This document shows, piece by piece, positions 16,971 through 35,130 of a stretch of 64,000 nucleotides of DNA. The notes beneath the pieces were generated by a model, which saw nothing but the letters and a program-made list of their open reading frames with translations, was not told where the DNA came from and searched no databases. Each line of letters opens with the position of its first letter. Positions within the stretch are counted from its first letter, which is position 1. The translations under genes and the position numbers were made by a program. The DNA is taken from positions 113,801 to 177,800 of the forward strand of contig NZ_JAKNHJ010000002.1 of assembly GCF_022133705.1 (NCBI RefSeq). Direction: 5' to 3'. The DNA comes from Varibaculum cambriense (lineage in GTDB: Bacteria > Actinomycetota > Actinomycetes > Actinomycetales > Actinomycetaceae).

Positions 16971-18314
16971 ATGAAAATGTTTAGAAGCGGCGAAGTTGTT
17001 GCCTTGGACCTTTCCCGGGGTAGACGCGTAATGCTGTTGGTATTAGTATCAATGGCCAGTTCAATGATTTATCTACCTCCATATATGAAAATAGTGTTTT
17101 ATGACCCGTTGATGAAGGCGTTGAACTGCACGAATGCCGATCTTGGGGTGTTGATGTCCGCATATGCGACAACCGCTTTGATTTGTTATCTGCCTTCAGG
17201 GATAGTGGCTGACAAATTTAGAATGCGAACTCTGAATGCGGCCGGTTTGATCTCTACAGCCGCCCTAACCTTCGTGTTTGCTCTACTTCCGTCTGTTGGT
17301 ACCTTGATGCTGGTCTTTGTCGCAATGGGGGTTACTACCATCTTGGTTTGGTGGGGAGTGCGCTTCAAACTGGTACGACTGATTTCTGAGGAGGAATCTT
17401 ACGGGCGCAATATTGGTATTTCCTACGGTATATATGGAGCCGTGGGCCTCGTTTGTGGCTTTTTACAAATGGGAATTATCGGTCTGTTCGGGAAGCAATT
17501 TGACCTCGCGATTTCCACCACTCTGGCGGTAATCGGAGGATTGCTGCTACTAATGGGGATTCTTTCGATATTCTTGGTGCCCAAGTTTGCGGGAGAGATC
17601 GGCTCTGCAGATTCGTCTGGTTTTAATTTCTCGATGGTACTAACCGCCTTGAAAATGCCGGTAGTTTGGTTGTGTGCCGGAACGATGTTTTTCGTTTACT
17701 TCTATTACACCGGGGTTGCTTACACTACGCCTTATTTGCAAAACGTACTTGGTGCATCTCTGGGGGTAGTGTCTTTCGTATCGATAGTTCGCACCTATGC
17801 GGTAACCCTAATATCAGGACCAATTTTTGGGGTAATCACTAAACGGAATGGTTCTCCCTCGAAGGTCATTATTGGCGGTTCAATAATCGTGGTTTGTGGG
17901 ATGCTCTCCTTGATGCTTCTACCCCACGAAGCTAGTTTCGCGGTAGTCGGAGCTATCGTAACTATCCTGCTGGGCTTTGTGGCTAACGGGGCTTATGGCA
18001 TTGCTTCATCCCAGTTGTCGGAAGGTAAGGTGCCCATCTCAGTGTTCGGCACGGCTACGGGATTACTCTCGGTTATCGGTTTCGCCCCTGATACGTTCTC
18101 TTCTACGTGGTTTGGGGTGCTTATCGATAAACACGGTAACGGAGCATATCCGCAAATTTTCTTGATCCTCGCAGTTTCAGCTCTACTGGCGGTGCTATTT
18201 GCTGGTGCCCTGCTACTTTATGTGCGTAAGAATAAGGTCAAGCTGGAACAAGTAGAAGAAAAACTCGGAGAATCCGCCTTAGAGGACGATGCCCATTCAA
18301 AGAAGAACAACTAA
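16971..18314 (+). CDS. MFS transporter, likely carrier for the cai-type island
   Basis: A 447-residue, 12-helix major facilitator protein. The ATG at 16971 is preferred over the longer frame because AAAGGA lies 6 nt upstream and the N terminus then matches family architecture. The loop 2-3 signature is recognisable as GIVADKFRMRTL. It ends 9 bp before the hydrolase gene and begins the gene run that includes caiA-, caiB- and caiC-like genes. E. coli uses the unrelated BCCT antiporter CaiT at this step, so this protein probably imports the pathway substrate or exchanges it with product. Substrate is inferred from context alone. Confidence 0.85.
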   Translation: MKMFRSGEVVALDLSRGRRVMLLVLVSMASSMIYLPPYMKIVFYDPLMKALNCTNADLGVLMSAYATTALICYLPSGIVADKFRMRTLNAAGLISTAALTFVFALLPSVGTLMLVFVAMGVTTILVWWGVRFKLVRLISEEESYGRNIGISYGIYGAVGLVCGFLQMGIIGLFGKQFDLAISTTLAVIGGLLLLMGILSIFLVPKFAGEIGSADSSGFNFSMVLTALKMPVVWLCAGTMFFVYFYYTGVAYTTPYLQNVLGASLGVVSFVSIVRTYAVTLISGPIFGVITKRNGSPSKVIIGGSIIVVCGMLSLMLLPHEASFAVVGAIVTILLGFVANGAYGIASSQLSEGKVPISVFGTATGLLSVIGFAPDTFSSTWFGVLIDKHGNGAYPQIFLILAVSALLAVLFAGALLLYVRKNKVKLEQVEEKLGESALEDDAHSKKNN

Positions 18315-18323
18315 GGAGAAGTT

Positions 18324-19289
18324 ATGGTAAACAAACTTGATGTACCACATTTGTGGTCGCAAGAGACTGAGCGCGCGGTAGCAAAGCAAGAAGAATTAGC
18401 AAAGGGAGTCTATTCCACAGATCAGTCCTTCGAGGAAATGCGGATTGCTTATAACAAGGAACGAGCTTACTGGAACCAAGATCCCCCTGAAATGGTGGAA
18501 GTGCGCGATGACACGGTCCCGACCGATAAAGGCGAAGTTAGAATCAGGCAGTACCGACCGGTTGAGGCGAAGACGCTTCCCTGTGTCATGTTTTTCCATG
18601 GCGGCGGCTGGGTGTTGGGCAATCTTGACACCCATGACCGGATGGCCAAGCTAATCGCCAGGGAAACCGGCGCAGCTGTGGTAGCGACTGATTACTCGCT
18701 ATCCCCAGAGGCTAAGTATCCCCAACCGATCGAAGAGGCAGTCCAGGTTTTCCACTATTTGCAAGACAACCATGAAGAGTGGGGGATAGATCCCAGGGAC
18801 TTCTCATTCACTGGGGATTCTGGCGGTGCACATATTTCACTTGCTACTTTCTTAGCTTTGCGGGGGGAAGGAATAAACCTTAGTGATATTCGTGCATTAC
18901 TGCTGTTTTATGGATGGTTCGGGCTCAGTGACTCAATGAGCTCCCGGCTACTAGGTGGATGGTGGGACGGATTGACTCAAGATGACTTCGATTTTTACAA
19001 GAGTCTCGCTTTGAAGGACATGTCGGAAACTAAACAGCCCTATGTTGATCTTTTCCGCAATGATCTGACCAAACATATGCCTCCAGTTTATCTGGCAGCA
19101 GCAGAACTGGATCCTTTGCTGGATGATTCCCGCCTGCTCTCAAAAATACTTGAGGCGAATAAAATACCGGTGCAGTTGGATGTATTTGCAGGGACAATCC
19201 ATGCTTTCTTACATCACTCCCGGATGCTAAAAGCAGCTAACGAAGCTATCGAAAATGCGGGCAGGTTCTACCAGAAGTTTGCCCGATAA
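18324..19289 (+). CDS. Alpha/beta hydrolase (HSL-like esterase)
   Basis: A 321-residue alpha/beta hydrolase of the hormone-sensitive-lipase group. The oxyanion motif is FHGGGW at residues 91-96, the nucleophile elbow GDSGG has Ser166, and the acid and base are likely Asp263 (AELDPLLDDS) and His293 (TIHAF). There is no signal peptide, so it is cytosolic. It has a strong AAGGAG site and sits between the carrier and caiA-like gene. The context suggests hydrolysis of an ester form of the substrate, for example an O-acyl derivative, but that is inference. E. coli cai operons have no such enzyme. Confidence 0.85.
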   Translation: MVNKLDVPHLWSQETERAVAKQEELAKGVYSTDQSFEEMRIAYNKERAYWNQDPPEMVEVRDDTVPTDKGEVRIRQYRPVEAKTLPCVMFFHGGGWVLGNLDTHDRMAKLIARETGAAVVATDYSLSPEAKYPQPIEEAVQVFHYLQDNHEEWGIDPRDFSFTGDSGGAHISLATFLALRGEGINLSDIRALLLFYGWFGLSDSMSSRLLGGWWDGLTQDDFDFYKSLALKDMSETKQPYVDLFRNDLTKHMPPVYLAAAELDPLLDDSRLLSKILEANKIPVQLDVFAGTIHAFLHHSRMLKAANEAIENAGRFYQKFAR

Positions 19290-19301
19290 GACCAGAGGTT
19301 T

Positions 19302-19332
19302 CTGGGGCGCTGACAATCTTCCAGCGCCCCAG
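19302..19332 (+). terminator. Strong hairpin between hydrolase and caiA-like gene
   Basis: An 11-bp perfect stem: CTGGGGCGCTG at 19302-19312 and its complement at 19322-19332, with a 9-nt loop. No T-run follows, so it is better read as an mRNA-stability or partial-termination hairpin separating the carrier/hydrolase part of the operon from the enzyme part. Confidence 0.5.
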
Positions 19333-19359
19333 GCATAACCCCATTGAAAGGAGAGAGCA

Positions 19360-20493
19360 TTGGAGTTCTCACTAAATGAAGATCAACAGATTATGGTTGA
19401 TGCTTTTCGCGAAGTGATGGAATCTAGGAATTGGGAAACCTATTTTCATGAATGCGACGAGACCCATACCTACCCCGAAGAATGGGTCAATGCTATTTGT
19501 GAGGTTGGTTTTGATCGAATAACGATTCCCGAAGAGTACGACGGCCTAGGTTTGGACTGGGTAACCATGACCGCGGCCTATGAGGAACTGGGGCGCTTGG
19601 GTGGCCCCACTTACGTCCTCTACCAGTTACCGGCGTTAGAAACCGTTTTGAAAAACGGTACCGACGAGCAAAAAGAAGCTGTTCTTGCCTTCTTAGGTAC
19701 CGGCAAACAAGTGCTGAACTATGCGATGACTGAACCGTCAGCAGGCTCGTCTTTTGAAGATATGCGAACCACCTACACTCGCCGTGATGGGAAAATTTAC
19801 CTAAATGGTCATAAGACTTTCCAGACCTCGGGAATGCACGTCCCCTACATGGTTGTCATGGCACGTGACAGTGAGGACAGCAGCAAGTACACGGAGTGGT
19901 TTGTAGATATGGCGAAATCTGGCATAACCAAGGAGCCACTAGAAAAGCTAGGCCTCCGTATGGATTCATGTGCCGAGATATACCTCGAAAACGTGGAACT
20001 AGAGGAGTCCGATAGGTTTGGAGAGGAGGGCGGTGCCTTCCGCCGCGTAGTAGGTGATTTTAACCTAGAGCGTTTCTTGGTTGCCTTAACGAATTACGGA
20101 ACCGCTTATTGTGCCTATGAGGATGCGGCTCGTTATGCTAATCAACGAGAGCAGGGCGGGAGAGCAATTGGAAAGTACCAGTTGGTTCAACTGAAGTTTG
20201 CTGACATGAAAGTAAAACTAACCAACATGAGAAATATGCTCTATGAAATTGCCTGGCGTCACGATCAAGGTTTACTCGGTCGCGGCGAGGGCTCAATGGC
20301 AAAGTACTACTGCTCGCACGCGGCATTTGAAGTGGTAGATGAGGCTTTGCAGGTGCTGGCGGGAATAGGTATCGCAGGAGAGCATCGGGTGCAGCGGTTC
20401 TGGCGTGATTTGCGGGTAGACCGGGTCTCTGGCGGAACCGACGAAATGATGATTCTGGACACCGCCTTTATGGCGCTGCGTCCTTACCGCTAG
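19360..20493 (+). CDS. caiA: CaiA-like acyl-CoA dehydrogenase (crotonobetainyl-CoA reductase family)
   Basis: A 377-residue flavin acyl-CoA dehydrogenase that matches E. coli CaiA along its whole length from memory, for example [39 protein letters not shown] and [13 protein letters not shown]. CaiA reduces crotonobetainyl-CoA to gamma-butyrobetainyl-CoA with electrons from ETF. The loop that holds the catalytic Glu in MCAD-type enzymes reads SGGTDEM here, as I recall it also does in CaiA. It has a TTG start, with AAAGGAGAGAG upstream. It is followed 9 bp later by the caiB-like gene. The family is secure; the natural substrate may be an analogue of crotonobetaine. Confidence 0.9.
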
Positions 20494-20502
20494 GGGGCAG
20501 AG

Positions 20503-21714
20503 ATGAACACGGATAAGCCTTCATTCGGAGCGCTTGATGATGTCAGGGTGTTGTACTCTGCAGTCGAAATTGCCGCGCCAACTGCCGCGGCAATAATGGG
20601 CGAGTGGGGAGCGGATGTGACCTGGATGGAGAATATCTGGACTGGTGACTCCATGCGGGACACCAAGTGGGTCAAGGAAATGGAACGGCGAAATATGCGT
20701 TCTCTTTCTATCCATCCCTTTACTTACGAAGGTAAAGAGGTACTCGTACGGCTGATAAAAGACACCGATATTTTTATCGAGGCCTCTAAAGGTCCCGTGT
20801 GGAAGCGTAAAGGGATTACCGATGAGCAGCTGTGGGAGGTTAATCCGTCTCTAGTTATCGTGCACGTATCAGGGTTTGGTCAGTGGGGTGACTCATCGAG
20901 AATTAATGCCGCTGCCTATGATCTCACGGTTGCTGCTTATGCCGGTTTGATCGCGCAAAATGGAAGCCCCGAACAGCCTATGAACATAGCACCCTACGGT
21001 GCCGACTACTTTAATGCGTTGATGATTATCTCTGCCAGTCTGGCAGCCTTGCACAAATCCCGTTTAACCGGGCAGGGGGAAAGCATTGATGTAGCCATGT
21101 ACGAAACGATTTTGCGTGTTGGTAGCTATTACATGATGGATTACCTAAATGAAGGGATAACTTATCCCCGACCTGGTGCCCGTCATCAAAACCTTTGTGC
21201 TATTGGTGAGTGGGAATGTAAAGATGGTTTCATCGGCCTTTGTGTATACGGGGTGCCGCAGAATAAGTATCTGCTCGAGACTATCGGCCTGGGAGATCTC
21301 TGGGGTACCGATGACTATCCCGAGGACACCTCTGCCTTGTGGCTGGACAGTCCGCAGGCTGATTTGATTCAGCGAAAGTTAGAGGAATATCTGAAAACGC
21401 AGTCCAAGTTCGAGGTTGAAAAGGACTTTTCGGCACACAAGATTGCGGCACAGGTGGTTAATGAATTCGATGATCTACTTAGGGAATCTCATGTCAAGGA
21501 CAGAGAGTGTTTCATCGAATGGGACAACGCGCAAGGAAAGAGGGTCAAGGGACTGAATACTTTCCCGAAGTTTACTAATAATCCTGGGGGTTTCTGGCGA
21601 CCGATGCCTGCGTTGGGTGCCGATTCCAGAGATGTATTGGAACGTGCCGGATTCAGCGCGGAAGATATTGAGCGTTTTAAAGAGTCCGGCAATATTAGAT
21701 TCGATGGGGAGTGA
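20503..21714 (+). CDS. caiB: CaiB-like CoA-transferase (class III)
   Basis: A 403-residue family III CoA-transferase that moves CoA between the product and incoming substrate. CaiB hallmarks include DIFIEASKGP, KGITDEQLW, HVSGFGQWG, GESIDVAMYE, MMDYLNEG and PKFTNNPGGFWRPMP. The catalytic aspartate is Asp168 in APYGADYF, matching Asp169 of E. coli CaiB. The C-terminal part ends in the usual RAGFSAEDIERF helix. It is tightly spaced after caiA and its stop overlaps the proposed caiC start, so the three are co-translated. The residues around the carnitine-binding pocket were not compared, so the substrate remains open. Confidence 0.9.
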   Translation: MNTDKPSFGALDDVRVLYSAVEIAAPTAAAIMGEWGADVTWMENIWTGDSMRDTKWVKEMERRNMRSLSIHPFTYEGKEVLVRLIKDTDIFIEASKGPVWKRKGITDEQLWEVNPSLVIVHVSGFGQWGDSSRINAAAYDLTVAAYAGLIAQNGSPEQPMNIAPYGADYFNALMIISASLAALHKSRLTGQGESIDVAMYETILRVGSYYMMDYLNEGITYPRPGARHQNLCAIGEWECKDGFIGLCVYGVPQNKYLLETIGLGDLWGTDDYPEDTSALWLDSPQADLIQRKLEEYLKTQSKFEVEKDFSAHKIAAQVVNEFDDLLRESHVKDRECFIEWDNAQGKRVKGLNTFPKFTNNPGGFWRPMPALGADSRDVLERAGFSAEDIERFKESGNIRFDGE

Positions 21715-23284
21715 AGAGGACGCGCCCAACGTTATAGGTGGGCGTAATCATTCGGCTATGTTTGACACCGCTAAGAATACGACGATTAGGGATCTGTGGC
21801 GACGGCAGTGCGCCACCTTCCCTGATCGTCCTTTCTTAGTATTTGTCAATACGGATACCCAGGAATGCGTCACCTACAGCTATCAAGATTTTGACCACCT
21901 TACGGAGCAATTTGCGGCTTTACTTGCCGAACGGGGATTACGAAAGGGAGATCGCTTGTGCGTCTACCTGGATAACTGTGTTGAATTCCTGGTCGCGCTA
22001 CTTGCTGCCCCCAAAATTGGGGTGGTTATCGTACCGGTAAATGCAGCTTCGACAGTTAAAGAGTATCTTTACATCGTTAATAAAACTCGGCCACGTCTGG
22101 TACTTACGAGACAAGATTGCTATCGACAAGCAGGGCTCCCCGATTTTTCGCCTCCGGCTATCCTAGTTGACGATCCTGGCGAGGGGTCTTTCCTACGTGA
22201 GCTGCAAAAATCTAATAAGACGGTGCCAACATCAGAGATTGAGCCCCTTGATCTCTGGGAAATCATGTTCACTTCCGGTACCACTTCGTCCCCTAAAGGA
22301 GTAATGCTCACCAACGCCAATGCAGTTTTTTCTGGTCTGTATGTCAATTGGGAGTTGAGTATGACTTGTCGAGATCGCTACCTGACTTCGATGGTGGTTT
22401 CTCATGTCAACTTCCAACTTTCGGCGCTAGCCCCAGTAATCACTGCTGGTGCCACATTGGTCTTACAATCTCGCTACTCCGCAAAACGCTTTTGGGAGGA
22501 AGCCCGGATCCGCCACGCTACCTTAGCGCAGGGTATGGCCATGATTGTGCGGACAATGCTCCGACAGCCGAAGAAGTTGGAAGAGCAGAACCACTGTGTG
22601 CGAGAAATGCACTATTTTCTACCCATATCGATTGGGGAAAAACAAGAATTTTGTGCCCGATTTGGGGTGAGTTTATTTAATAACTACGGATTAACTGAAA
22701 GTCTAGTGGGGGTAATTACGGATTCGCCTCACGCAGAGCGACGCTGGCCCTCGATTGGCAAAGTAGGTCCTACTTATCAGGTGCGTTTAGTGGACTCACA
22801 GGGGGAGGACAATCCAGGTAAAGAGGGCGGAAGCATTGAAATTCACGGAACTCCGGGAATCAATTTGATGGCAGGCTACTGGGAGGATCCACAAGCAACC
22901 AGGCGAGTGCTTTCCGAGGACGGATGGTTAAGAACTGATGACTACGCTTTACAAGACCGGGATGGGTGGTATTACTTCCTCGGGCGGGACTCGGATCTTA
23001 TAAAACGAGGCGGGGAAAATGTATCCGCGGCAGAAGTAGAAAATGTATTGATGCAATGCCCGGGGGTACAGCAAGCGGCAGTTATTGGGGTTCCCGATAG
23101 TATTCGAGACCAGGCTATCAAGGCTTTTGTTGTATTGGAGTCTGGTGTCAAATATAGCCAAGCGGAAATTATCAGTTTCGCGCAAGAAAATCTTTCATAT
23201 TACAAAGTTCCCAGTTCTGTGGAATTTCGCAGGGAACTCCCGCAAGGAAAATACGGCAAAGTTGCAAAGAATAAGTTGGCCTAA
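21704..23284 (+). CDS. caiC: CaiC-like acyl-CoA ligase (betaine-CoA ligase family)
   Basis: An adenylate-forming acyl-CoA synthetase of about 526 residues, resembling E. coli CaiC throughout. The AMP-binding motif is FTSGTTSSPKGVML, then NNYGLTESLVGVI, the GWLRTDDYA aspartate, DLIKRGGENVSAAEVEN and the catalytic lysine region LPQGKYGKVAKNKL. It activates the substrate with ATP and CoA to prime the CaiB cycle. The ATG at 21704 overlaps the caiB end and suits translational coupling; ATG 21758 would give an N terminus closer to E. coli CaiC. Neither has a strong ribosome site. The motif TDDYA replaces the more usual TGD. Confidence 0.88.
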   Translation: MGSEEDAPNVIGGRNHSAMFDTAKNTTIRDLWRRQCATFPDRPFLVFVNTDTQECVTYSYQDFDHLTEQFAALLAERGLRKGDRLCVYLDNCVEFLVALLAAPKIGVVIVPVNAASTVKEYLYIVNKTRPRLVLTRQDCYRQAGLPDFSPPAILVDDPGEGSFLRELQKSNKTVPTSEIEPLDLWEIMFTSGTTSSPKGVMLTNANAVFSGLYVNWELSMTCRDRYLTSMVVSHVNFQLSALAPVITAGATLVLQSRYSAKRFWEEARIRHATLAQGMAMIVRTMLRQPKKLEEQNHCVREMHYFLPISIGEKQEFCARFGVSLFNNYGLTESLVGVITDSPHAERRWPSIGKVGPTYQVRLVDSQGEDNPGKEGGSIEIHGTPGINLMAGYWEDPQATRRVLSEDGWLRTDDYALQDRDGWYYFLGRDSDLIKRGGENVSAAEVENVLMQCPGVQQAAVIGVPDSIRDQAIKAFVVLESGVKYSQAEIISFAQENLSYYKVPSSVEFRRELPQGKYGKVAKNKLA

Positions 23285-23305
23285 AAGCAAATTCAAAGGA
23301 GAATC

Positions 23306-24184
23306 ATGGCTCGTATAAAAACAGAAATGGTAGGCAAAGAGTTCGGTCCCTTCATTCGGGACTACAATTTCCGTGATCTTGAGTTATTCGCCTTAGGATG
23401 CGGAGCAGGTATCGATGGAAAAGAAGGACTGGAATATTTAAACGAGGGCGATCCCCGTTCACCCAAGCTAAAAGTACTTCCCATGTTCGGAGCAATGTTG
23501 ATTGTCGATCAAGAGATAACTCGCACTATCGATTATGGGTATAACTATGCCGGATCTTTGCATTGGGGTTTTGATATTCGCTTCGAGCAGCCAATCACCA
23601 AAATGTCCGACCGCTTAGAAACTAGAGTGGTGCTGCAAGGGCTCTTTGATCGGGGTGAAGGTAGAGGTTTACTAGCTCAACATGTAGGAAGAACCTATGA
23701 CTCAGACGGTAACCTTCTTTTCACTAATGAGTCCTGGGATTGCCTAATTTATGACGGTGGCTGGGGTGGCCCGAAAGCACCAAAAGACTTGGTTGAGATG
23801 CCCGAGCGTCCTGCCGATATCGAAGTTACGGAACGCATTCCCGAAAACCAAGCTCTGATCTATCGACTTTCTGGTGACTGGCATCCGCAACACATTGACT
23901 GGGAGTATGCCAAGGAGAACGGGCAGCCGCGTCCTATTTTGCATGCAATCTCATATGCCGGTATGGTCATGCGCCATGCCATTGCGCAATATTTCCCAGG
24001 AGAACCAGACAGGATAACTCGCTTCAAGACGAGGATTACCAGTCCCGTACTTCCAGGACAAGTTCTGAAGACTCAATTGTGGCAGGTAGGATCCGGAGAG
24101 TTGAGATTCCGTCTCGTTGATGAGGATGCCAAAACTACCGGAGCAAAACCCCATTTGAACTGGGGAATTATTGAGTTTAAGTAA
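23306..24184 (+). CDS. MaoC-like double-hotdog enoyl-CoA hydratase
   Basis: A 292-residue hydratase of the MFE-2/MaoC (R-specific enoyl-CoA hydratase) type. The C-terminal hotdog has the catalytic motif DWHPQHID, giving Asp191 and His196, followed by PRPILHAISYAGM as in peroxisomal hydratase 2. The N-terminal hotdog, from about residue 55, is the degenerate substrate-binding half. It has an AAAGGAG site and is the last gene of the + strand run. In E. coli the matching step, hydration of crotonobetainyl-CoA to carnitinyl-CoA, is done by the unrelated crotonase CaiD, so this looks like a non-homologous replacement. Confidence 0.85.
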   Translation: MARIKTEMVGKEFGPFIRDYNFRDLELFALGCGAGIDGKEGLEYLNEGDPRSPKLKVLPMFGAMLIVDQEITRTIDYGYNYAGSLHWGFDIRFEQPITKMSDRLETRVVLQGLFDRGEGRGLLAQHVGRTYDSDGNLLFTNESWDCLIYDGGWGGPKAPKDLVEMPERPADIEVTERIPENQALIYRLSGDWHPQHIDWEYAKENGQPRPILHAISYAGMVMRHAIAQYFPGEPDRITRFKTRITSPVLPGQVLKTQLWQVGSGELRFRLVDEDAKTTGAKPHLNWGIIEFK

Positions 24185-24212
24185 GAAAGGGTGTCGATGA
24201 TCGGGAGTCGTG

Positions 24213-24239
24213 TTCCCGGGTAGGAATCTATCCCGGGAA
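24213..24239. terminator. Bidirectional hairpin between maoC-like and tetR genes
   Basis: TTCCCGGG at 24213-24220 and CCCGGGAA at 24232-24239 form a perfect 8-bp stem in the 60-bp gap between convergent stops. Outer GTGTCG (24191) and CGACAC (24247) could extend it. Its place between convergent genes suits two-way termination. Confidence 0.55.
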
Positions 24240-24244
24240 ACTGG

Positions 24245-24877
24245 CTACGACACTAGGCGGCGATTATGGTCGGAATGGAGGTCTGAATGCAAGGAAAGTT
24301 GGTCAGATACCACAGACTCTGCGTATTCGCGGAACTCGGTTTTGAAGCAATCAATATTTGCAGGATCCAAGCAAAAAGCTCGCATCAGAACCGAGCCCTC
24401 AACTGCATCCAACAAACGAGTGATCGACTGGTCACCGGGAATAATTCCTGCTTGTTTAAACTTCCACAGTTTGCTGCGCAGCTGAGAAATCGGTTGATCG
24501 TAGGTAATCGAATGAATCTTGGCGATCACCGGTTGATCGCTGGAAGCCATTTCCACAAAGATTCGGCGCACGGCCTGGGAAGATTGGCCAAAATAGAGAT
24601 CCAGTCGGTACTCAATTTCATCTAAAAGGAGGTCTTGGACGGTGTCACCAGTAGGAACGTGTTCGCTAACTAGGTGCTCGAACGCGGAAATCAGCAGGGT
24701 TTCGCGGTTACGGAAGCGGTTGTACATGGTGGATTTTCCTACGCCAGCTTCTTTTGCCACCTGGGTAAGATTGAAACCCGCCCACCCAGATTGTCCATAT
24801 ACCGTTAGGGCAGCGCGAAGAATTTTTCCATCAGCAAGTGTGTCGCGGGGGCGACCTATCTGGGGCTTCGGTGTCAC
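24245..24877 (-). CDS. TetR family transcriptional regulator
   Basis: A 210-residue regulator. The N-terminal helix-turn-helix is NLTQVAKEAGVGKSTMYNRF at about residues 32-51, followed by a ligand-binding domain without recognisable specificity. The start is set at GTG 24877 because GAGGAGG lies 5 nt upstream; the much longer open frame upstream overlaps the fixA promoter. The gene sits between the cai-like and fix-like operons and is divergent from fixA, so it probably controls one or both in response to a substrate or CoA ester. Confidence 0.88.
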   Translation of the reverse strand: MTPKPQIGRPRDTLADGKILRAALTVYGQSGWAGFNLTQVAKEAGVGKSTMYNRFRNRETLLISAFEHLVSEHVPTGDTVQDLLLDEIEYRLDLYFGQSSQAVRRIFVEMASSDQPVIAKIHSITYDQPISQLRSKLWKFKQAGIIPGDQSITRLLDAVEGSVLMRAFCLDPANIDCFKTEFREYAESVVSDQLSLHSDLHSDHNRRLVS

Positions 24878-25071
24878 CAGATCCTCCTCAAAATGGCTAG
24901 CTACCCTCACCGTAGCACAGGAAATGCACATTCTGGCGGAAAAAAATTTTATTACCAAACTAATTGTAAAAACGAAAAACCCGCGATGCAAGAGCGAGGT
25001 AGCAGTGTCATTAGACGGGCTTTCCCGTAGGCATGCCGTCGCGAAAGCATCACCTATGGAAGGAGAAAAAC

Positions 25072-25833
25072 GTGAGTATTGTAGTTGCGTATAAATACGC
25101 GGCAAATCCACAAGATGCACTGGTAAAACCCGATGGAGAAGTTGATTGGAGCCGGGTAAAACCAGCACTTTCAGATTATGATCCGGTAGCGATAACTGTC
25201 GGACGTAGTCTAGCTGACGCCCTAGACACTACTTTGGTGGGGATTTCTGTCGGAGGGGAGAGCGTAGCTTCGTCTATGGCAAAGAAGACTGCGTTATCTC
25301 GGGGACTAGACAGTGCGCTGGTAGTAGCTGACGCGGCTACCGCAAGCTGGAATGCGAGTAAAACAGCATCTGCTCTGGCTGAACTGGTTGGCAAAGTGTC
25401 CGATGTGAAACTAGTGATAACCGGAGACTCCTCAATTGATGAGGGATCCCGGATAACCTCTGCTCTGATTGCTGGCTATTTGGGTTGGCCCTGTTTTCAA
25501 GACGTGTGTGCCGTAGAACCTGCAGGAGCTGGTTATCGCGTAAGTCAGATTGTAGCTGGAGGCGTAAAAGTTCTGGAGGTTTCCACTCCCGCAGTGTTGG
25601 CGATGAGCTCGGATGCGGCAGCGGTAAAACCACCTGCGATGCGGGAGGTGTTAGCTGCTAATAAGAAACCTCTCGAGGTTGTTCCGGTATCAGACCTGAA
25701 CATTGTCTCTGTTGAGCAAGAGATCGTCGGCTCGAGCAAACCTGAATCTAGGATGCGTAAACAGCAAATCTTCTCTGGCGAGAATGCAGCTTCCGAGTTG
25801 ATCACCGCACTACACTCCGAGAACGTCCTTTAG
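25072..25833 (+). CDS. fixA: Electron transfer flavoprotein beta subunit, FixA-like
   Basis: A 253-residue ETF beta-type protein. It forms a heterodimer with the next gene product, binds adenine nucleotide/FAD, and carries electrons to the CaiA-like enzyme. The family pattern is clear: VVAYKYAANPQD, then DYDPVAITVGRSLAD, the glycine-rich SVGGESVASSMAKKTALSRGLD, and VAGGVKVLEVSTPAVLAMSS. The start is GTG 25072, with AAGGAG 6 nt upstream, rather than the ATG at 25033. About 195 bp separate it from the divergent tetR start, and this gap must hold both promoters. It is followed 15 bp later by fixB. Confidence 0.9.
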   Translation: MSIVVAYKYAANPQDALVKPDGEVDWSRVKPALSDYDPVAITVGRSLADALDTTLVGISVGGESVASSMAKKTALSRGLDSALVVADAATASWNASKTASALAELVGKVSDVKLVITGDSSIDEGSRITSALIAGYLGWPCFQDVCAVEPAGAGYRVSQIVAGGVKVLEVSTPAVLAMSSDAAAVKPPAMREVLAANKKPLEVVPVSDLNIVSVEQEIVGSSKPESRMRKQQIFSGENAASELITALHSENVL

Positions 25834-25848
25834 GAAAGGAAAAAGAAA

Positions 25849-26718
25849 ATGTCTGATACCTGGATTATCGCTGAAGACGGCGCGATTTCGGCGCTGGTAG
25901 AAATTGGAAAGAACTACGGCGGAAAAACAAATGTGGTACTGGTAGGAGATGCCGAAATTAAGGGTGTAGATCGGGTAATTCGTATTCCCAAAACGCCCGA
26001 TCAGCCGGTAGAAACGTTAGCTCCGGCAGTGGTGGCTAGCCTGCGACCTGAGTCAGAAGACATTATCCTGGCCGGCAATACTCCCGGCTCGCGGGTGCTA
26101 GCGGGAGCAGTAGCGGCAAAACTTGGAGTTCCAATATTTTTCGGGCTGCAAACAATTAGCCCGGGTGAAATAACTGTTTCCCGCTACGGGGGAATAACTT
26201 TGCAAACCTTCCGAATCAATGGATCGGTTGTGGCGGTAGTGGATGGGGGAACTGAAACCGAAGGAGATACCCCAATCCTCGAGGAGGGATCTACAGCTGC
26301 TTACGACGTTAAAGTTGTTTCGGTAGACAAATCCGAGAGTGTAAAAACTCCTTTGGGGGCGGCGCGCAGAGTTGTTTCTGCTGGTAGAGGTTTTAAGAAT
26401 GCTGAAGACTTAAAGCTACTAGCGCAGTTCGCAGATTCAATAGGTGCTGAGGTTGCCTGTTCGCGGCCGCTTGCCGAAGGTGCTGGTTGGTTGGAACGTG
26501 ACCGGTATGTAGGAATCTCTGGGCAGCATATTAGCCCCGAGTTGTATATCGCTGTGGGAATTTCAGGGCAACTCCAGCACACTGCTGGGATGTCTAATGC
26601 TGCTACCGTGGTAGTTATTAACAGTGACGAGCGGGCTCCCTTCTTCAAACAGGCAGACTACGGTATTGTGGGAGATCTGTACGAGGTAATACCCGCCCTG
26701 ACGGAGGCAGCGAGATAA
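25849..26718 (+). CDS. fixB: Electron transfer flavoprotein alpha subunit, FixB-like
   Basis: A 289-residue ETF alpha subunit, which binds FAD and pairs with FixA. The C-terminal FAD domain is typical: VSAGRGFKNAEDLKLLAQFA, EVACSRPLAEGAGWLERDRYVG, then SPELYIAVGISGQLQHTAGM and VVVINSDERAPFFKQADYGIVGD. The N-terminal domain is somewhat short for the family. It lies 15 bp after fixA and 3 bp before fixC, so the set is one operon. Together FixAB should hand electrons to the CaiA-like reductase or take them from it. Confidence 0.92.
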   Translation: MSDTWIIAEDGAISALVEIGKNYGGKTNVVLVGDAEIKGVDRVIRIPKTPDQPVETLAPAVVASLRPESEDIILAGNTPGSRVLAGAVAAKLGVPIFFGLQTISPGEITVSRYGGITLQTFRINGSVVAVVDGGTETEGDTPILEEGSTAAYDVKVVSVDKSESVKTPLGAARRVVSAGRGFKNAEDLKLLAQFADSIGAEVACSRPLAEGAGWLERDRYVGISGQHISPELYIAVGISGQLQHTAGMSNAATVVVINSDERAPFFKQADYGIVGDLYEVIPALTEAAR

Positions 26719-26721
26719 AAC

Positions 26722-28017
26722 ATGAGTGTGGAATACGATTTCGATGTCATCATCGTAGGTGGCGGCGTCGCCGGAACGGTATGTGCCTACCTTTTAGCAA
26801 AAGAGGATCACCAGGTCTTGTTGATTGAGCGCGGCTCGGAAGTGGGGGCTAAGAACCTTTCGGGCGGGGTGTTCTACTGCCAGGTAATGAACCAGATTTT
26901 CCCCGGCTTCATTGAAAAAGCCCCAGTTGAACGAAAAATCACCAAGAACATTCTTTCCTTCCTGAACCCGACCTCCGCCGTAAATATGGAGTATTGGGAT
27001 CAAAGGCTAACTGATCCGGTAAACGCGGTCAGCGTTCTGCGCGCCAAACTTGACCCTTGGCTGGCGGAGCAGGCAGAAGCAGCCGGTGCCACCATTATGC
27101 CAGGCATGAAAGTTGATGAACTGGTGCGCGAGGGCGGCAAATTCTGCGGAGTGCGTGCGGGAGAAGACACCGTATACGGCAAAATAATCGTGGCAGCAGA
27201 CGGGGTGAACTCCTTCCTCGCGCAATATGCCGGGATTCGCCCTAAAGAACCGCTGGGTCACCTGGGGGTGGGGGTAAAATCTGTTATCCAGCTAGGGGAA
27301 GAAACCCTGAAAGAACGCTTCAACCTGCAAGAGGGCGAGGGCGCGGCCTATCAAATGGTAGGGGACTGCACTCAAGGAGTAGCAGGCGGCGGCTTCCTGT
27401 ACACCAACCGGGATTCGGTTTCTATCGGGATCGTGGCGATGCTAGATGACCTGAAGAAAAAACAGTTATCTTCCTCTGAACTGCATGATCATTTCTTACA
27501 GCACCCCTATATCGAACCGTTCCTGCGCGGAGGAAAACTGCTCGAATATGGCTGCCATCTGGTAGCCGAGGGTGGTAAATCCATGCAACAAGGACTGGTA
27601 CATGACGGGCTGATTCTGATAGGCGACGCCGCCGGTTTCACCCTCAACACCGGGTTCACGATTCGGGGAATGGATTTGGCAGCCGGATCTGCCCAAGCCG
27701 CCGCCAGCGCCATTGATACCGCACTCAAAGCAGAAAACTATAGCGCGTCCTCGTTAAATAAATATCTGGAAAACTACCAGGCGTCTTTCGTTGGTAAAGA
27801 TATGGAAACTTTCGCGCGCGCGCCGCAGTTCCTACACAACCAGGAACTATACGGCCAGGTAGGACGGCTCGCGGCGGACGTGTTCCACGGGGTCTATAAC
27901 CTGGATACCACCCCGCGACAGCGGCTATTACCAGTGGCGCGGGCAGCGTTGAAGAAATCGCCACTGAGTATGCGCCGCCTGGTGAAGCTCGGTTTACAAG
28001 CAGTGAGGTCGATTTAA
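26722..28017 (+). CDS. fixC: FixC-like flavoprotein (ETF-quinone oxidoreductase family)
   Basis: A 431-residue FAD protein homologous to FixC and the flavin part of ETF:quinone oxidoreductase. The N-terminal dinucleotide fold is VIIVGGGVAGTVCAYLLA, followed by the GSEVGAKNLSGGVFY motif characteristic of FixC, and a second FAD motif GLILIGDAAGFTLNTGFTIRGMD. It passes electrons between the quinone pool or a reductant and FixAB, with the ferredoxin FixX. Its stop is one base before the fixX start. Compared with the enzymes upstream its codon use looks more like the chromosomal housekeeping genes. Confidence 0.92.
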   Translation: MSVEYDFDVIIVGGGVAGTVCAYLLAKEDHQVLLIERGSEVGAKNLSGGVFYCQVMNQIFPGFIEKAPVERKITKNILSFLNPTSAVNMEYWDQRLTDPVNAVSVLRAKLDPWLAEQAEAAGATIMPGMKVDELVREGGKFCGVRAGEDTVYGKIIVAADGVNSFLAQYAGIRPKEPLGHLGVGVKSVIQLGEETLKERFNLQEGEGAAYQMVGDCTQGVAGGGFLYTNRDSVSIGIVAMLDDLKKKQLSSSELHDHFLQHPYIEPFLRGGKLLEYGCHLVAEGGKSMQQGLVHDGLILIGDAAGFTLNTGFTIRGMDLAAGSAQAAASAIDTALKAENYSASSLNKYLENYQASFVGKDMETFARAPQFLHNQELYGQVGRLAADVFHGVYNLDTTPRQRLLPVARAALKKSPLSMRRLVKLGLQAVRSI

Positions 28018-28018
28018 A

Positions 28019-28315
28019 ATGACTGATTACCTTCCCGAATCCGTATCTGAGAGACTTAGCGCCAATATTTATGAGGTTGACGAAGAAGAATCCCATATCG
28101 TTATCGACCAAGAACTAGCGAAAGCCACGGACGCCGGCAAACTTCTAGAGCGCGTTTGCCCCGCTCATGTCTATACCGCCCGCGAGGACGGAACAGTCGA
28201 TATCGAATACGCCGCCTGCCTAGAATGTGGCACCTGCCTGGCAGTCGCTCCTCCCGGGGTGCTCAAATGGCGTTACCCGCGCTCCATGATGGGCATTAGT
28301 TACCGGGAGGGTTAA
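28019..28315 (+). CDS. fixX: FixX-like ferredoxin
   Basis: A 98-residue ferredoxin-like protein that partners FixC. Iron-sulfur ligands are visible as the single cysteine in RVCPAHVYT and the CLECGTC cluster (C-x2-C-x2-C). The ending LKWRYPRSMMGISYREG matches the conserved FixX tail. It is the last gene of fixABCX. No terminator is obvious in the 69 bp before the next gene. Confidence 0.92.
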   Translation: MTDYLPESVSERLSANIYEVDEEESHIVIDQELAKATDAGKLLERVCPAHVYTAREDGTVDIEYAACLECGTCLAVAPPGVLKWRYPRSMMGISYREG

Positions 28316-29340: not shown

Positions 29341-31284
29341 CTAGGCAGAAGCCTGTTTCTTTGCGTAGCGGTAGCCCCAAAGCGCTATAGCGACGAAGAT
29401 AACCAGCCCGACCAGGGAGGACGTTCCTGACCAGGAATCAGGTACTATTGCCAGCGGCTCTCCGCTGCCAGTGCCTCCCACAATCGCAGCGTAAACCACG
29501 CCCCACAGGCTTTCCCCTACTATTAACCCGGTGGCGAGCAAAGTTCCCATTCGGGAAGCCGCCTCCGGATTCTTTCGAGTCTTAGCCCAGCGGTTAAAGA
29601 GAACTCCGCAGGTAGCGCCAACCGGAATCAAGATGGTGAGGGTGATAGGCAGATACATTCCCATCCCCACTGCGATTGGAGGCAGCGAGTAACGAGATGT
29701 GGTGTGCTTTAGAATCTCGTCTATTAAGATGATGGCCACCCCGATCAATGCTCCAAGACCCAGCAGACTCCAGTCAATATCGCCTCCAAAGACCCCTTTG
29801 GTAAGTTCAGCAATCAGAGACGCTTGCGGAGCAGCCAGCGCATTCTTGCCCGCACCAGGGGCTCCTTGAAATCCGAAAGCCGTGTTCATCAGCTGTAACA
29901 CCGGTGGAATTATTAAAGAGCCGAAACCTACCCCTATTATCAGCGCCACCTGCTGTTTCCAAGGGGTAGAGTTCACCAATTGACCGGTTTTAAGGTCTTG
30001 TAAGTTGTCGTTAGAAATAGTGGCAATACCAAATATGATTGCCGCCGTGAACAGGGTGTACGCGACAAGGGTCTTAGGGTCGGCACCGGCCGGAGTCGCT
30101 AGTTTAATTACCAGAGCCGTCAGAATTGCTACCAAGATTCCCACCCCAGAAACCGGGCTGTTTGACGAACCTATCAGTCCCGCCATATATCCGCAGACGC
30201 TGGCAACTGCGAGCCCAAGTGCCAAAATGAACACGATTGACAAGAAAATTAGTCCACCCGTGTGATGCTCTAAGGAACTGCCCCGCAAAAATAGCCACAA
30301 TAGAACCCCGATAGGAATCATTAAAGCTAAGGTGATACCGATAACCCAAGACGCTGGCAGGTCTCGTTCTTGTGGGGGGACAGTGAATCCACCTTTACGT
30401 TTACGAGACGCACTAATGGATTCGCGCATTCCTTGAAAAATCGGTCCAATAATTTTTAGGAACGTCCAAATCGCAGCGATAGCGATGGTGCCAGCGCCTA
30501 CGAAACGTACATCGGAAGCAAAAATTCCTTGCACGCCCTCGGCAATATCCCCGCTGCCGAGCTGACCAGAAGAGAAGTAAGGAAGCAGCACCCCATAGCT
30601 GATTAGCATGCCGCAAATCATGGCGATACCGACACCCAGACCTACCAAATGTCCAATCCCGATAAGCGCTAATGACAGGCTAGTTCCCACCATAGTGCCA
30701 CCCGCTCCCACTTTAAACGCGGTGGTGACAGAGGAAAGCGCGACTTTAAGATTAGTAAGCAAACTGAAAAATGCGGAAGAAATAGCTCCCCAAACGATCA
30801 CGTGCAGACCCCGGCGGTTGTCGGCGGCGCCTTCGCTAGTGTCCCCAACTTTTAGGACTTCCGCCGCCGCTACGCCCTCGGGAAAAGAAAGGTCAGAACC
30901 GGTTACGAGGGCGCGCCGCAAGGGAATAGAATAGGTAACCCCCAAAATCCCTCCCAGGGCGCATAAGAGGGCGGTAGTCCAATAGGGGAAGCCGGTCCAC
31001 CAGCCGACCATGATTAGGCCAGGTAGCACAAAAATGATTGCCGACAAGGTTCCGGCTGCCGAAGCAATGGTCTGTACGATGTTGTTTTCTTGCACGGTAT
31101 GATCTTTGAAATACCGCAAGATTGCCATGGAAATAACGGCCGCCGGAATTGAGGTGGCAAAAGTCAGCCCCACTTTTAACCCTAAATAAACATTTGCGGC
31201 TGTGAAGATTAAGGTGATGATTCCCCCGATAATCACTCCGCGAATAGTTAGTTCTTTTACTGCTGTTTTCGATTCAGTTGTCAT
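29341..31284 (-). CDS. OPT family oligopeptide/metal-chelate transporter
   Basis: A 647-residue, strongly hydrophobic protein of the oligopeptide transporter family, with roughly 14-16 membrane segments. The N-terminal pattern is typical of prokaryotic OPTs: RGVIIGGIITLIFTAANVYL, then GLKVGLTFATSIPAAVISM and NIVQTIASAAGTLSAIIFVLPG. Members carry peptides or metal-siderophore complexes driven by protons; the cargo here is unknown. The start has GGAG upstream. It is monocistronic and divergent from the SSS symporter across a 372-bp intergenic region. Confidence 0.9.
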   Translation of the reverse strand: MTTESKTAVKELTIRGVIIGGIITLIFTAANVYLGLKVGLTFATSIPAAVISMAILRYFKDHTVQENNIVQTIASAAGTLSAIIFVLPGLIMVGWWTGFPYWTTALLCALGGILGVTYSIPLRRALVTGSDLSFPEGVAAAEVLKVGDTSEGAADNRRGLHVIVWGAISSAFFSLLTNLKVALSSVTTAFKVGAGGTMVGTSLSLALIGIGHLVGLGVGIAMICGMLISYGVLLPYFSSGQLGSGDIAEGVQGIFASDVRFVGAGTIAIAAIWTFLKIIGPIFQGMRESISASRKRKGGFTVPPQERDLPASWVIGITLALMIPIGVLLWLFLRGSSLEHHTGGLIFLSIVFILALGLAVASVCGYMAGLIGSSNSPVSGVGILVAILTALVIKLATPAGADPKTLVAYTLFTAAIIFGIATISNDNLQDLKTGQLVNSTPWKQQVALIIGVGFGSLIIPPVLQLMNTAFGFQGAPGAGKNALAAPQASLIAELTKGVFGGDIDWSLLGLGALIGVAIILIDEILKHTTSRYSLPPIAVGMGMYLPITLTILIPVGATCGVLFNRWAKTRKNPEAASRMGTLLATGLIVGESLWGVVYAAIVGGTGSGEPLAIVPDSWSGTSSLVGLVIFVAIALWGYRYAKKQASA

Positions 31285-31656
31285 CGTAGGCCGATCTCCT
31301 TGGTCACATACGCCAAGTTCAGGATACGACCTGACGGGAGATTTAAAAAACGGGGTTAATACCTGACTTACGTGTATAAAATCGTTGTTTTTGTGGTTTG
31401 ATCAGGGGGTATGATGCTTTGAATATGCTTTGAGAGGCAGCGTGCAAATCAAGTTAGTTGTAAAACAAAAAGGAGGTTATAAACGAAACATCCACTAGCG
31501 GGTAAAGATGGAGAAAAAAATTAGTAAAACATACTTTTGTGGTGAGCTGGTCGCAGTATAGTGGCAGATAGCCGCCAAAGCCCGGGTGATTCCCCTCTCG
31601 GATAATCACCTAAGCTATGACGGGATAATAATGTCTTTTCTTATAAGGGGGAGGGA
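31285..31656. promoter_or_regulatory. Divergent regulatory region, OPT / SSS symporter
   Basis: A 372-bp gap between divergent transporter genes, A/T-rich in its centre. GGTGATT near 31585 and AATCACC near 31605 form a 7-bp inverted repeat with a 12-nt spacer, a possible operator about 45-70 bp before the symporter start. AAAGGAGG near 31470 is not followed by a usable start. I see no RNA gene. Confidence 0.4.
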
Positions 31657-33432
31657 ATGATCCACCCGATACTTATGCCCAATGAGGTAACTACCTTGAT
31701 TGAGCCCAAGTTTTACGACTATTTCCCAATTATTGTTTACTTCGCGTTTGTAGTGGCCGTTGGGTTCATGATGAAGCGAAAGGCCAGTTCATCTGATGAA
31801 TTCTTGACTGGTGGGCGTTCGTTACCAGCCTGGGTGACTGGTCTGGCTTTCGTGTCTGCCAACTTGGGCGCAGTTGAGATTATGGGAATGAGTGCTAACG
31901 GTGCACAATATGGTCTGCCCACGTTCCATTATTTTTGGCTGGGCGCGATCCCGGCAATGCTGTTCCTAGGTATTGTGATGATGCCGTTCTATTACGGTTC
32001 GAAAGTCCGCTCGGTTCCTGAGTTTATGCTTAAGCGGTACGGAACTGCCGCTCATCTAATCAACGGGCTTTCCTTTGCCCTCGCGCAGCTGCTAATCGCC
32101 GGGGTAAACCTGTATTTGCTAGGTAAAATCGTTAACGGAATGTTGGGAATCCCGTTATGGATTTCCCTGATTATTGCTGCGCTAATCGTGCTGACCTATA
32201 TCAGCATCGGCGGTCTGGCGGCCGCCATTTACAACGAAGTTTTGCAGTTCTTCGTGATTGTCGCCGCGCTACTGCCGGTGACTTTGATTGGCTTATATCG
32301 CGTAGGTGGCTATCGAGGATTAACCGAGAAAATCACCAAATGGGCAAATGAGGCCACTAATCCGGTGTATCAGGATCCGAATAACCAGCTGCATTCATGG
32401 CCGGGCACGCTATTGTCGGGCTTCAACTCGCCCGCAATGTCAATATTTGGCTTGGTTATGGGGTTAGGGTTTGTTTTGGCTTTCGGTTATTGGACCACAA
32501 ACTTCGTGGAAGTCCAACGGGCGATGGCTTCAGATTCGATTTCTGCCGCCCAAAAGACTCCGATTATTGGAACCTTCGTGAAAATGTTTATTCCATTCCT
32601 GGTGATTATCCCGGGTATGGTAGCTGGGGTATTGATTCCGGAAATTGTAAAGCTCAAGGGCGGGCCAGATTTTATGGGGGTAGGCGAGGAAGCGCTCGCG
32701 AACCTATCCTCTCACGTCCCGGCGGGTTATGAAGTCAGCTACAACGATGCCATGCTGCTCATGATGCGGGATTTGCTACCTAATGGTTTGCTTGGTTTGG
32801 CGATTGCCGGTTTGCTGGCTTCCTTTATGGCAGGGATGGCAGCGAACGTATCTGCTTTTAACACGGTGTTTACGGTTGATATTTATGAGGCCTATTTCAA
32901 ACCGAATGAATCCGATGAGCACTACCTGAAGGTGGGACGCAACGCCACTATTGTGGCCTGTACCGTCGCGGTATTTACTGCGTTGATTGCCTCCCTGTAC
33001 CCGAACATTATGGACTTGCTGCAGCAGTTGTTCTCTATGTTTAACGCGCCGCTGTTTGCCTGTTTTATTATCGGTATGCTCTGGAAACGGGCAACCCCCT
33101 CGGGAGGCTGGACCGGTTTGTTGTTTGGTACTTTAGCCGCGTTATTGGTTAACGTCTTGTGCTGGAACAAGATCTTAGAGCTGCCCGGCCAAGGCCAAGC
33201 GTTCATTGCTGCGGGCGCGGCCTTTGTAGTCGGCGTGCTGGTAAACGTGGTGGTTTCCCTGTTTACCAAACCCAAGGATTATGCAGAGTTGGAGGGCTTC
33301 GTTTGGTCGCTTACTCCTAAAGAACGCCGCGTTGACCCGAACTTACATAAGTTGCCGGTAATGCGCCGTCCTATTCCACTCGCGATAGTAGCCGGTGTGC
33401 TGGTGATCGCCTTGAATACGTTTTTCCACTAG
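31657..33432 (+). CDS. Sodium:solute symporter (SSS family, sugar-type)
   Basis: A 591-residue Na+-coupled symporter of the LeuT fold, with about 14 membrane helices. Family features are the N-terminal SSDEFLTGGRSLPAWVTGLAFVSANLGAVE segment, carrying the GGRS and SAN motifs, and YISIGGLAAAIYNEVLQFFV around the Na+ site. The Glu/Asn-rich N-terminal half resembles sugar (SGLT-like) symporters. The neighbours are a small membrane protein, a NahK-like sugar kinase and a beta-helix protein, which together favour a sugar or amino-sugar oligosaccharide as cargo. The start is well supported by GGGGGAGGG. Confidence 0.9.
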   Translation: MIHPILMPNEVTTLIEPKFYDYFPIIVYFAFVVAVGFMMKRKASSSDEFLTGGRSLPAWVTGLAFVSANLGAVEIMGMSANGAQYGLPTFHYFWLGAIPAMLFLGIVMMPFYYGSKVRSVPEFMLKRYGTAAHLINGLSFALAQLLIAGVNLYLLGKIVNGMLGIPLWISLIIAALIVLTYISIGGLAAAIYNEVLQFFVIVAALLPVTLIGLYRVGGYRGLTEKITKWANEATNPVYQDPNNQLHSWPGTLLSGFNSPAMSIFGLVMGLGFVLAFGYWTTNFVEVQRAMASDSISAAQKTPIIGTFVKMFIPFLVIIPGMVAGVLIPEIVKLKGGPDFMGVGEEALANLSSHVPAGYEVSYNDAMLLMMRDLLPNGLLGLAIAGLLASFMAGMAANVSAFNTVFTVDIYEAYFKPNESDEHYLKVGRNATIVACTVAVFTALIASLYPNIMDLLQQLFSMFNAPLFACFIIGMLWKRATPSGGWTGLLFGTLAALLVNVLCWNKILELPGQGQAFIAAGAAFVVGVLVNVVVSLFTKPKDYAELEGFVWSLTPKERRVDPNLHKLPVMRRPIPLAIVAGVLVIALNTFFH

Positions 33433-35031: not shown

Positions 35032-35130
35032 ATTACCTGGGTGGTTCAGACTGTTTGGTTAACGGAAGGCTGTAAACAGACCCGGTAGTTAGATACAGTA
35101 ATGGTTCTACCTATAGATACAGAGAGGCGC

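Follow-up and report, generated by a model that had tools for sequence, protein, structure and literature searches.

A caiABC-fixABCX island of Varibaculum cambriense with an MFS carrier and a MaoC-type hydratase at the places of CaiT and CaiD

How might a carnitine-type gene cluster function when neither the carrier CaiT nor the crotonase CaiD of Escherichia coli is part of it? This question is raised by a locus (the "island") of Varibaculum cambriense, located at positions 16971-28315 of a 64,000-nucleotide stretch of DNA (the "window") taken from an assembly of 2.23 Mb in 73 contigs. The island contains caiA-, caiB- and caiC-like genes in the E. coli order with fixABCX-type genes nearby, and is predicted, with a probability that we place at roughly 0.78, to encode a reductive carnitine fermentation which is fed by acylcarnitines and likely operates under low oxygen. 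An earlier note on this DNA had recognized the caiABC and fixABCX genes, and all named genes were found to be intact open reading frames (ORFs) with family matches at the coordinates below; an esterase gene between the first carrier gene and caiA had been overlooked. A minus-strand regulator gene separates two sets of plus-strand genes, the second of which encodes an electron transfer flavoprotein (ETF) system:

16971..18314, plus strand: MFS1, an MFS carrier (Pfam MFS_1, E 1.9e-19), upstream of caiA at the position of E. coli caiT; the ORF is open from a GTG at 16896, and the start at 16971 agrees with the N-termini of relatives
18324..19289, plus strand: esterase of the Aes/HSL type, with HGGG and GDSGG motifs; it passes the NCBIfam acetyl esterase cut-off of 389 with 394 bits
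19360..20493, plus strand: CaiA, crotonobetainyl-CoA reductase, with a TTG start (NCBIfam, 669 bits against a cut-off of 540)
20503..21714, plus strand: CaiB, carnitine CoA-transferase (NCBIfam, 656 against 413 bits; top PDB match E. coli CaiB, E 1e-102)
21758..23284, plus strand: CaiC-like betaine CoA ligase (NCBIfam, 518 bits, below the cut-off of 651); the ORF is open from 21617, and the start, set by comparison, is uncertain
23306..24184, plus strand: MaoC double-hotdog hydratase 2, where CaiD would sit, with Asp191 and His196 in the motif GDWHPQHIDW
24245..24880, minus strand: TetR-family regulator (Pfam TetR_N, E 1.2e-9), its start approximate within an ORF extending to 25168; the gene has the same position and strand in many relatives
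25019..25048, no strand: imperfect inverted repeat of 15+15 nt preceding fixA, a weak candidate for an operator that may have arisen by chance
25072..25833, plus strand: FixA-type ETF beta subunit, with a GTG start behind AAGGAG; the ORF is open from 25033
25849..26718, plus strand: FixB-type ETF alpha subunit (NCBIfam search and E. coli comparison, as for the next two)
26722..28017, plus strand: FixC-type ETF:quinone oxidoreductase
28019..28315, plus strand: FixX-type ferredoxin

CaiA and CaiB both exceed the curated NCBIfam equivalog cut-offs of their carnitine families. BLASTP identities to the E. coli K-12 proteins are 60% for CaiA, 42% for CaiB and 39% for CaiC, followed by 26% (FixA), 34% (FixB), 43% (FixC) and 41% (FixX). 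The description of the latter genes as FixABCX-type is correct in kind though loose, since for the window FixA and FixC the PRK12342 and PRK10015 models (which we take to be YdiQ and YdiS) outscore those of FixA and FixC, with all of these scores below cut-off. Of 53 positions that do not vary among CaiT-linked CaiB proteins and are not shared by Frc and YfdE, the window CaiB keeps 46 (31-52 in other rows without CaiT).

Within the island no match to CaiT, CaiD or CaiE was obtained (a genome-wide search was not made for CaiE), and NCBIfam and Pfam gave no thiolase or 3-hydroxyacyl-CoA dehydrogenase match for any of its proteins, in agreement with the absences that had been reported. Ordinary β-oxidation was considered and ruled against, as CaiA itself is the only acyl-CoA dehydrogenase retrieved from the assembly by a CaiA query at E 1e-5. 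The CaiD query, at E 0.001, retrieved a single crotonase from the genome (28% identity over residues 92-259), which lies near a sub-cut-off MenD-like match and may be MenB. Two BCCT transporters with 26-28% identity to CaiT are encoded outside the island (G000:C34:55861-57327 and G000:C72:11090-12550; G and L numbers denote genomes and loci, G000 being the window's own genome).

The protein at the place of CaiD combines a MaoC_dehydratas domain (Pfam, E 2.6e-18) with an MFE-2 hydratase-2 N-terminal domain (28.6 bits, cut-off 27), the NCBIfam search returning no family match for it. It matches human MFE-2 hydratase 2 (PDB 1s9c) over both domains with an E value of 5e-32, and the motif Asp and His, presumably the catalytic residues, are aligned; at the sequence level it is a two-domain hydratase 2 that has both. 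The human motif reads GDWNPLHIDP and the window differs from it, as it does from the pattern GDxNPLHxDP found in 26 of 26 hydratase-2 rows not linked to cai genes. Copies that are linked to cai genes and retain the Asp and His are here called type 1, and 36 of 41 such copies have GD[YFW]HPQH[IV]DW; the other five are three from family f42 (GDWHQQHIDF), L036 (HINW) and the first copy of L062 (GDTHPQHVDW). The exchanges of Asn for His, Leu for Gln and Pro for an aromatic residue might suit a cationic substrate. Trees were obtained by quick IQ-TREE runs with support from the SH-like approximate likelihood ratio test (SH-aLRT) only, and 27 loci were left out of those for MaoC and CaiA. In the MaoC tree a branch with SH-aLRT 100 parts the cai-linked copies from all 26 unlinked hydratases, and this, together with the differing motif, led us to reject a general hydratase 2. 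Judged by tree and motif, the island enzyme is a separate hydratase-2 clade with a motif of its own, which is new in this work.

This clade goes with cai genes. When 296 genomes of the phylum were searched with the window MaoC, 64 matches were obtained at E 1e-20, of which four, its own included, have at least 61% identity and all lie in cai islands, the others reaching at most 36%. Conversely, 15 of the 21 genomes behind chosen loci have a cai cluster without MaoC (13 with CaiD, two from Campylobacter), and at E 1e-20 these 15 have no MaoC copy anywhere. It is nonetheless conceivable, if very unlikely, that crotonobetaine is imported and reduced as such and that MaoC has a side role instead of dehydrating carnitine. 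Members of the clade need not all be hydratases, given that type-2 copies beside cai genes in three loci (L061, the second copy of L062 and the first copy of L067) have exchanged the motif Asp for Asn, Cys or Ile. Type 1, to which the window protein belongs, retains both residues, and MaoC is the sole candidate hydratase in the island. It is also the best conserved aligned island protein among the five nearest relatives, with 78-84% identity as compared to 72-77% for CaiA and 73-77% for CaiB; CaiC has 46-51% in four full-length alignments.

The data show which genes are present, how they are conserved, to which families they belong and that this MaoC clade is linked to CaiT-bearing operons; for the proposed carnitine reduction the individual steps, the way in which electrons flow and the tasks of the carriers are inferred as follows. 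MFS1 would import carnitine or acylcarnitine, and the esterase, here proposed to be an acylcarnitine hydrolase, would strip the acyl group; it is the presence of this gene in the island that points to acylcarnitines as feedstock. The CaiC-like ligase would prime the cycle by making a CoA thioester, after which CaiB would move CoA from the γ-butyrobetainyl-CoA product onto incoming carnitine. The MaoC protein would then dehydrate this thioester to crotonobetainyl-CoA, which CaiA would reduce with electrons from the FixAB flavoprotein, itself supplied by FixC and FixX from the quinone or ferredoxin pool, and γ-butyrobetaine would exit the cell. Esterases with 64-71% identity to E. coli Aes also share loci with cai/fix genes in Enterobacterales (L066, L072, L087 and, on a partial stretch, L086), a co-location hinting that Aes may be linked to carnitine esters.

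A cluster of this kind is already in print. The available part of Roder et al. 2024 (PMC11007987) describes, for Propionibacterium freudenreichii, an MFS gene and an α/β-hydrolase gene near caiABC; a second MFS gene and a gene named simply "enoyl-CoA hydratase" separate caiABC from fixABCX, and the cluster has neither caiD nor caiT. The window shares this gene content except for the second MFS gene. According to the same text, in isolates that possess the first MFS and hydrolase genes, octanoyl- and decanoylcarnitine fall while carnitine and a putative γ-butyrobetaine rise (PMC11007987). The nearest named Propionibacteriaceae locus of the current work, L041, has MFS1 and the esterase, and its MaoC falls into the clade of the window protein. 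Taken together, the published phenotype and the L041 gene set make acylcarnitine/carnitine reduction the best explanation, and carnitine is the best-supported substrate. The carnitine assignment of the earlier note is thereby upheld, on the retained CaiB positions and the same-clade MaoC in CaiT operons as well as on this phenotype.

Several observations weigh against this assignment. In the part of the P. freudenreichii paper at hand the result is an association in which the identification of γ-butyrobetaine is putative (PMC11007987), and orthology with the window rests on gene content and not on sequence or exact order; in L041, unlike in the window, fixAB lies between caiB and caiC. The carnitine/crotonobetaine-CoA ligase family is the best of 106 families for the CaiC-like protein, yet its cut-off is unmet. 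Named actinobacterial CaiA proteins have 56-70% identity to E. coli CaiA and fall outside the branch that unites Bacillota, Proteobacteria and Campylobacterota in the CaiA tree, a divergence that may leave room for a shifted substrate. Finally, the geometry of hydratase 2 predicts D- rather than L-carnitine, as considered further below.

Alternatively, the cluster might work on another carnitine-like betaine, or on an unsaturated acid, imported by the MFS carrier. Such a substrate would fit an island that has no BCCT carrier, a CaiC below its cut-off, and a CaiA in which 18 of 55 diagnostic positions (those fixed among CaiT-linked CaiA proteins but not found in YdiO) are changed and 37 kept, other rows without CaiT keeping 36-53. 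We regard it as improbable in view of the conserved CaiB-diagnostic positions, the Bacillota intermediates that hold both CaiT and MaoC, and the carnitine phenotype described in the accessible portion of the P. freudenreichii report (PMC11007987).

The survey of related genomes that had been proposed for the same gene set was performed by scanning GTDB species genomes with an actinobacterial CaiB query; the best 80 of 165 relatives gave 79 named loci, a selection that favours likeness to actinobacterial CaiB and is not an unbiased census. Among 38 Actinomycetota loci, 36 have MFS1 and MaoC without CaiT or CaiD, the two others (L045 and L049) being short contigs; counted singly, MFS1 is matched in 37 of the 38 and the esterase in 35. 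The order MFS1-esterase-CaiA-CaiB-CaiC-MaoC recurs in Actinomycetaceae, in Cellulomonadaceae and in a further family of the phylum, f42, whose three islands continue with a second MFS gene, two of them having a crotonase with 40% identity to CaiD on the locus. Of the four Bacillota loci, three have CaiT with MaoC, and one (L047), lacking CaiT, has MaoC and an MFS1-like gene (31%) upstream of caiA. CaiT with CaiD is found in 29 of 33 Pseudomonadota loci, CaiT with CaiD and MaoC in one (L064), and CaiT with MaoC in three, including L061, where CaiD lies elsewhere in the genome. The four Campylobacterota loci comprise one with CaiT and MaoC, two with CaiT and a crotonase of 41-43%, and one with CaiT and neither in view.

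CaiT thus occurs together with MaoC of this clade in eight loci from three phyla other than Actinomycetota. In six CaiT-bearing clusters (L052, L054, L055, L060, L062 and L067) a type-1 MaoC is found without an E. coli-type CaiD, and whole-genome searches with CaiD in all of these except L055 retrieved only crotonases of 32-41%. The Bacillota operons of Neobacillus, Schinkia and Peptococcaceae (L052, L054 and L055), arranged as CaiT-CaiA-CaiB-FixABCX-CaiC-MaoC-MFS2, share with the window the MaoC clade, a CaiB on the actinobacterial branch and the absence of CaiD from the cluster, and differ from it in having CaiT (41-42% to E. coli) and a CaiA with 76-81% identity to E. coli, with no esterase match. 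As compared to E. coli caiTABCDE-fixABCX, the window keeps the CaiA-CaiB-CaiC order and nearby Fix genes, lacks CaiT, CaiD, CaiE and CaiF, and has MFS1, the esterase, MaoC and TetR in their stead. The finding that MFS and MaoC genes occupy the CaiT and CaiD places was confirmed, and these genes do differ from those of E. coli; the wording "swapped" goes too far in that the arrangement is widespread rather than local, and it takes the E. coli form to be the original.

Of the 38 named Actinomycetota loci, 32 have a match to a further MFS gene, which corresponds to E. coli yaaU (the neighbour of fixX) and has no match in the window island. In relatives the interval from MaoC to the Fix genes holds this YaaU-matching carrier and often an MBL-fold hydrolase (L012:13092-14408 and L014:14373-14984), and the window has neither.

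Which cai genes go with which hydratase was then read from trees and pairwise identities. The CaiB trees omit 16 loci (near-duplicates, thinned by hand), while the assortment tests cover 23 of 84 loci for the approximately unbiased (AU) tests, whose groups were named after earlier trees so that p values are descriptive, and 20 of 84 for pairwise identities. In both CaiB tree runs the 15 CaiD-linked rows are split off together by a branch with support 99. In the CaiA tree, the hydratase label requires four changes, Enterobacillus tribolii (with MaoC) falling within Enterobacterales and the Ferrimonas copies grouping by genus. Enterobacterales and Enterobacillus are united in the trees of CaiA (support 96) and CaiT (83, not starred), but their union is rejected with p 5e-61 for CaiB and p 1e-46 for CaiC; the CaiC tree also rejects the CaiD rows as a single group (p 8e-9). 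For pairs with 80-85% CaiA identity, mean CaiB identity is 81% for CaiD-CaiD pairs (34 pairs) and 57% for CaiD-MaoC pairs (31 pairs), and the eight CaiD-MaoC pairs in the 85-90% band, judging from CaiT values, represent in effect one organism, Enterobacillus. Exceptions are F. sediminum, which has MaoC yet a CaiD-type CaiB, and the Campylobacterales locus L062 (with MaoC), one CaiB of which groups with Campylobacter loci. In these data, and as a new observation, CaiB and in part CaiC follow the hydratase type, CaiA and CaiT following species. An attempt to date CaiD against MaoC by rooting the CaiB tree failed, the outgroup branches being far too long.

This assortment bears on stereochemistry. 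Hydratase 2 yields (3R)-hydroxyacyl-CoA. As derived by hand, the (3R)-like shape corresponds to (S)-, that is D-carnitine, because replacing the 4-methyl by a trimethylammonio-methyl group alters the Cahn-Ingold-Prelog order, and L-carnitine has the crotonase-like shape; a MaoC enzyme serving L-carnitine would therefore act on the opposite face. It follows that the MaoC module could have been built for the other enantiomer, with the CaiB of MaoC operons selected for D-carnitine or for both. The hydratase type is indeed followed by CaiB and partly by CaiC but not by CaiA, which acts on an achiral substrate and goes with species, and Ferrimonas kyonanensis and F. sediminum have CaiD beside type-1 MaoC, as would be expected of a pair interconverting D and L forms. 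We nevertheless hold this to be unlikely: CaiT, the importer of the chiral substrate, tracks species and not hydratase, contacts between CaiB and the hydratase could equally explain their co-assortment, and both the CaiB of F. sediminum and the behaviour of the CaiD rows in the CaiC tree run counter to it. In the parts of the literature available, D-carnitine is moreover said to be absent from nature (PMC2131755), and the acylcarnitines of the P. freudenreichii phenotype are those of milk (PMC11007987), presumably in the L form. The adjoining CaiD and type-1 MaoC genes of Ferrimonas are seen in L064 and in genomes G353 and G355.

A broader proposal, offered tentatively and held by us to be possible rather than probable, is that CaiB, CaiC and the hydratase are exchanged as one module, whose type is dictated by the chiral substrate. 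On this view the MaoC form, present in four phyla, would represent either a D-carnitine pathway or a hydratase 2 with inverted facial selectivity, the dual-hydratase Ferrimonas operons would be CoA-level carnitine racemases, and the form with a crotonase, as in E. coli, would have arisen later.

The history of the island within the genus was examined in five congeners (L147-L151, G001-G005). With the CaiB query at E 1e-30, seven of 59 relatives match: the genome that holds the window, members of five other genera of the family (73-78%) and a distant one at 28%. None of the five congeners does. All five retain the flanking genes for an HrpA-type helicase and a GNAT protein, and their 20-kb stretches searched gave no match to any window gene from MFS1 to fixB. 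They do keep fixC (91-97% identity, no stops) and fixX (90-94%), and just upstream of fixC a short stretch resembles, by eye, the fixB 3' end, as would be expected after a deletion. A recent horizontal gain in the window genome was therefore set aside, since loss in the sisters fits better with intact fixCX and the apparent fixB remnant. Ratios of nonsynonymous to synonymous substitution among the five congeners are 0.04-0.07 for fixC and 0.03-0.08 for fixX, similar to the neighbouring GNAT gene, so that the orphan pair is under purifying selection. All six genomes encode another ETF alpha subunit (37-39% identity to FixB over part of its length), a possible partner of the orphan FixCX. Retention of fixCX without fixAB in sister species suggests a role for FixCX apart from its usual flavoprotein partner.

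Downstream of the island, the window encodes an OPT-family oligopeptide transporter and a sodium:solute symporter (29341-33432), as well as a partial match to the lacto-N-biosidase LnbX family (35101-36840, 593 bits against a cut-off of 2500).

Among literature matches listed for P. freudenreichii, acylcarnitine and butyrobetaine, only PMC11007987 covers such a cluster, judging by title. Matches listed for CaiB, carnitine and Actinobacteria contained, by title and start of abstract, no paper on an actinobacterial cai cluster, and none listed for MaoC, carnitine and CaiA holds MaoC. No match joined crotonobetainyl-CoA and MaoC. These negatives are weak evidence of absence, as subscription papers are mostly outside the coverage.

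γ-Butyrobetaine derived from carnitine is a trimethylamine precursor, and the literature ties trimethylamine to heart disease. As stated in the part of the source available, a survey database demands that one genome have the complete set of six genes, caiTABCDE (PMC11857547), and a requirement of this type likely overlooks clusters with MaoC, for example in Actinomycetaceae. The island hydratase, for its part, poses a question that can be tested: whether a hydratase-2 fold can form L-carnitinyl-CoA.

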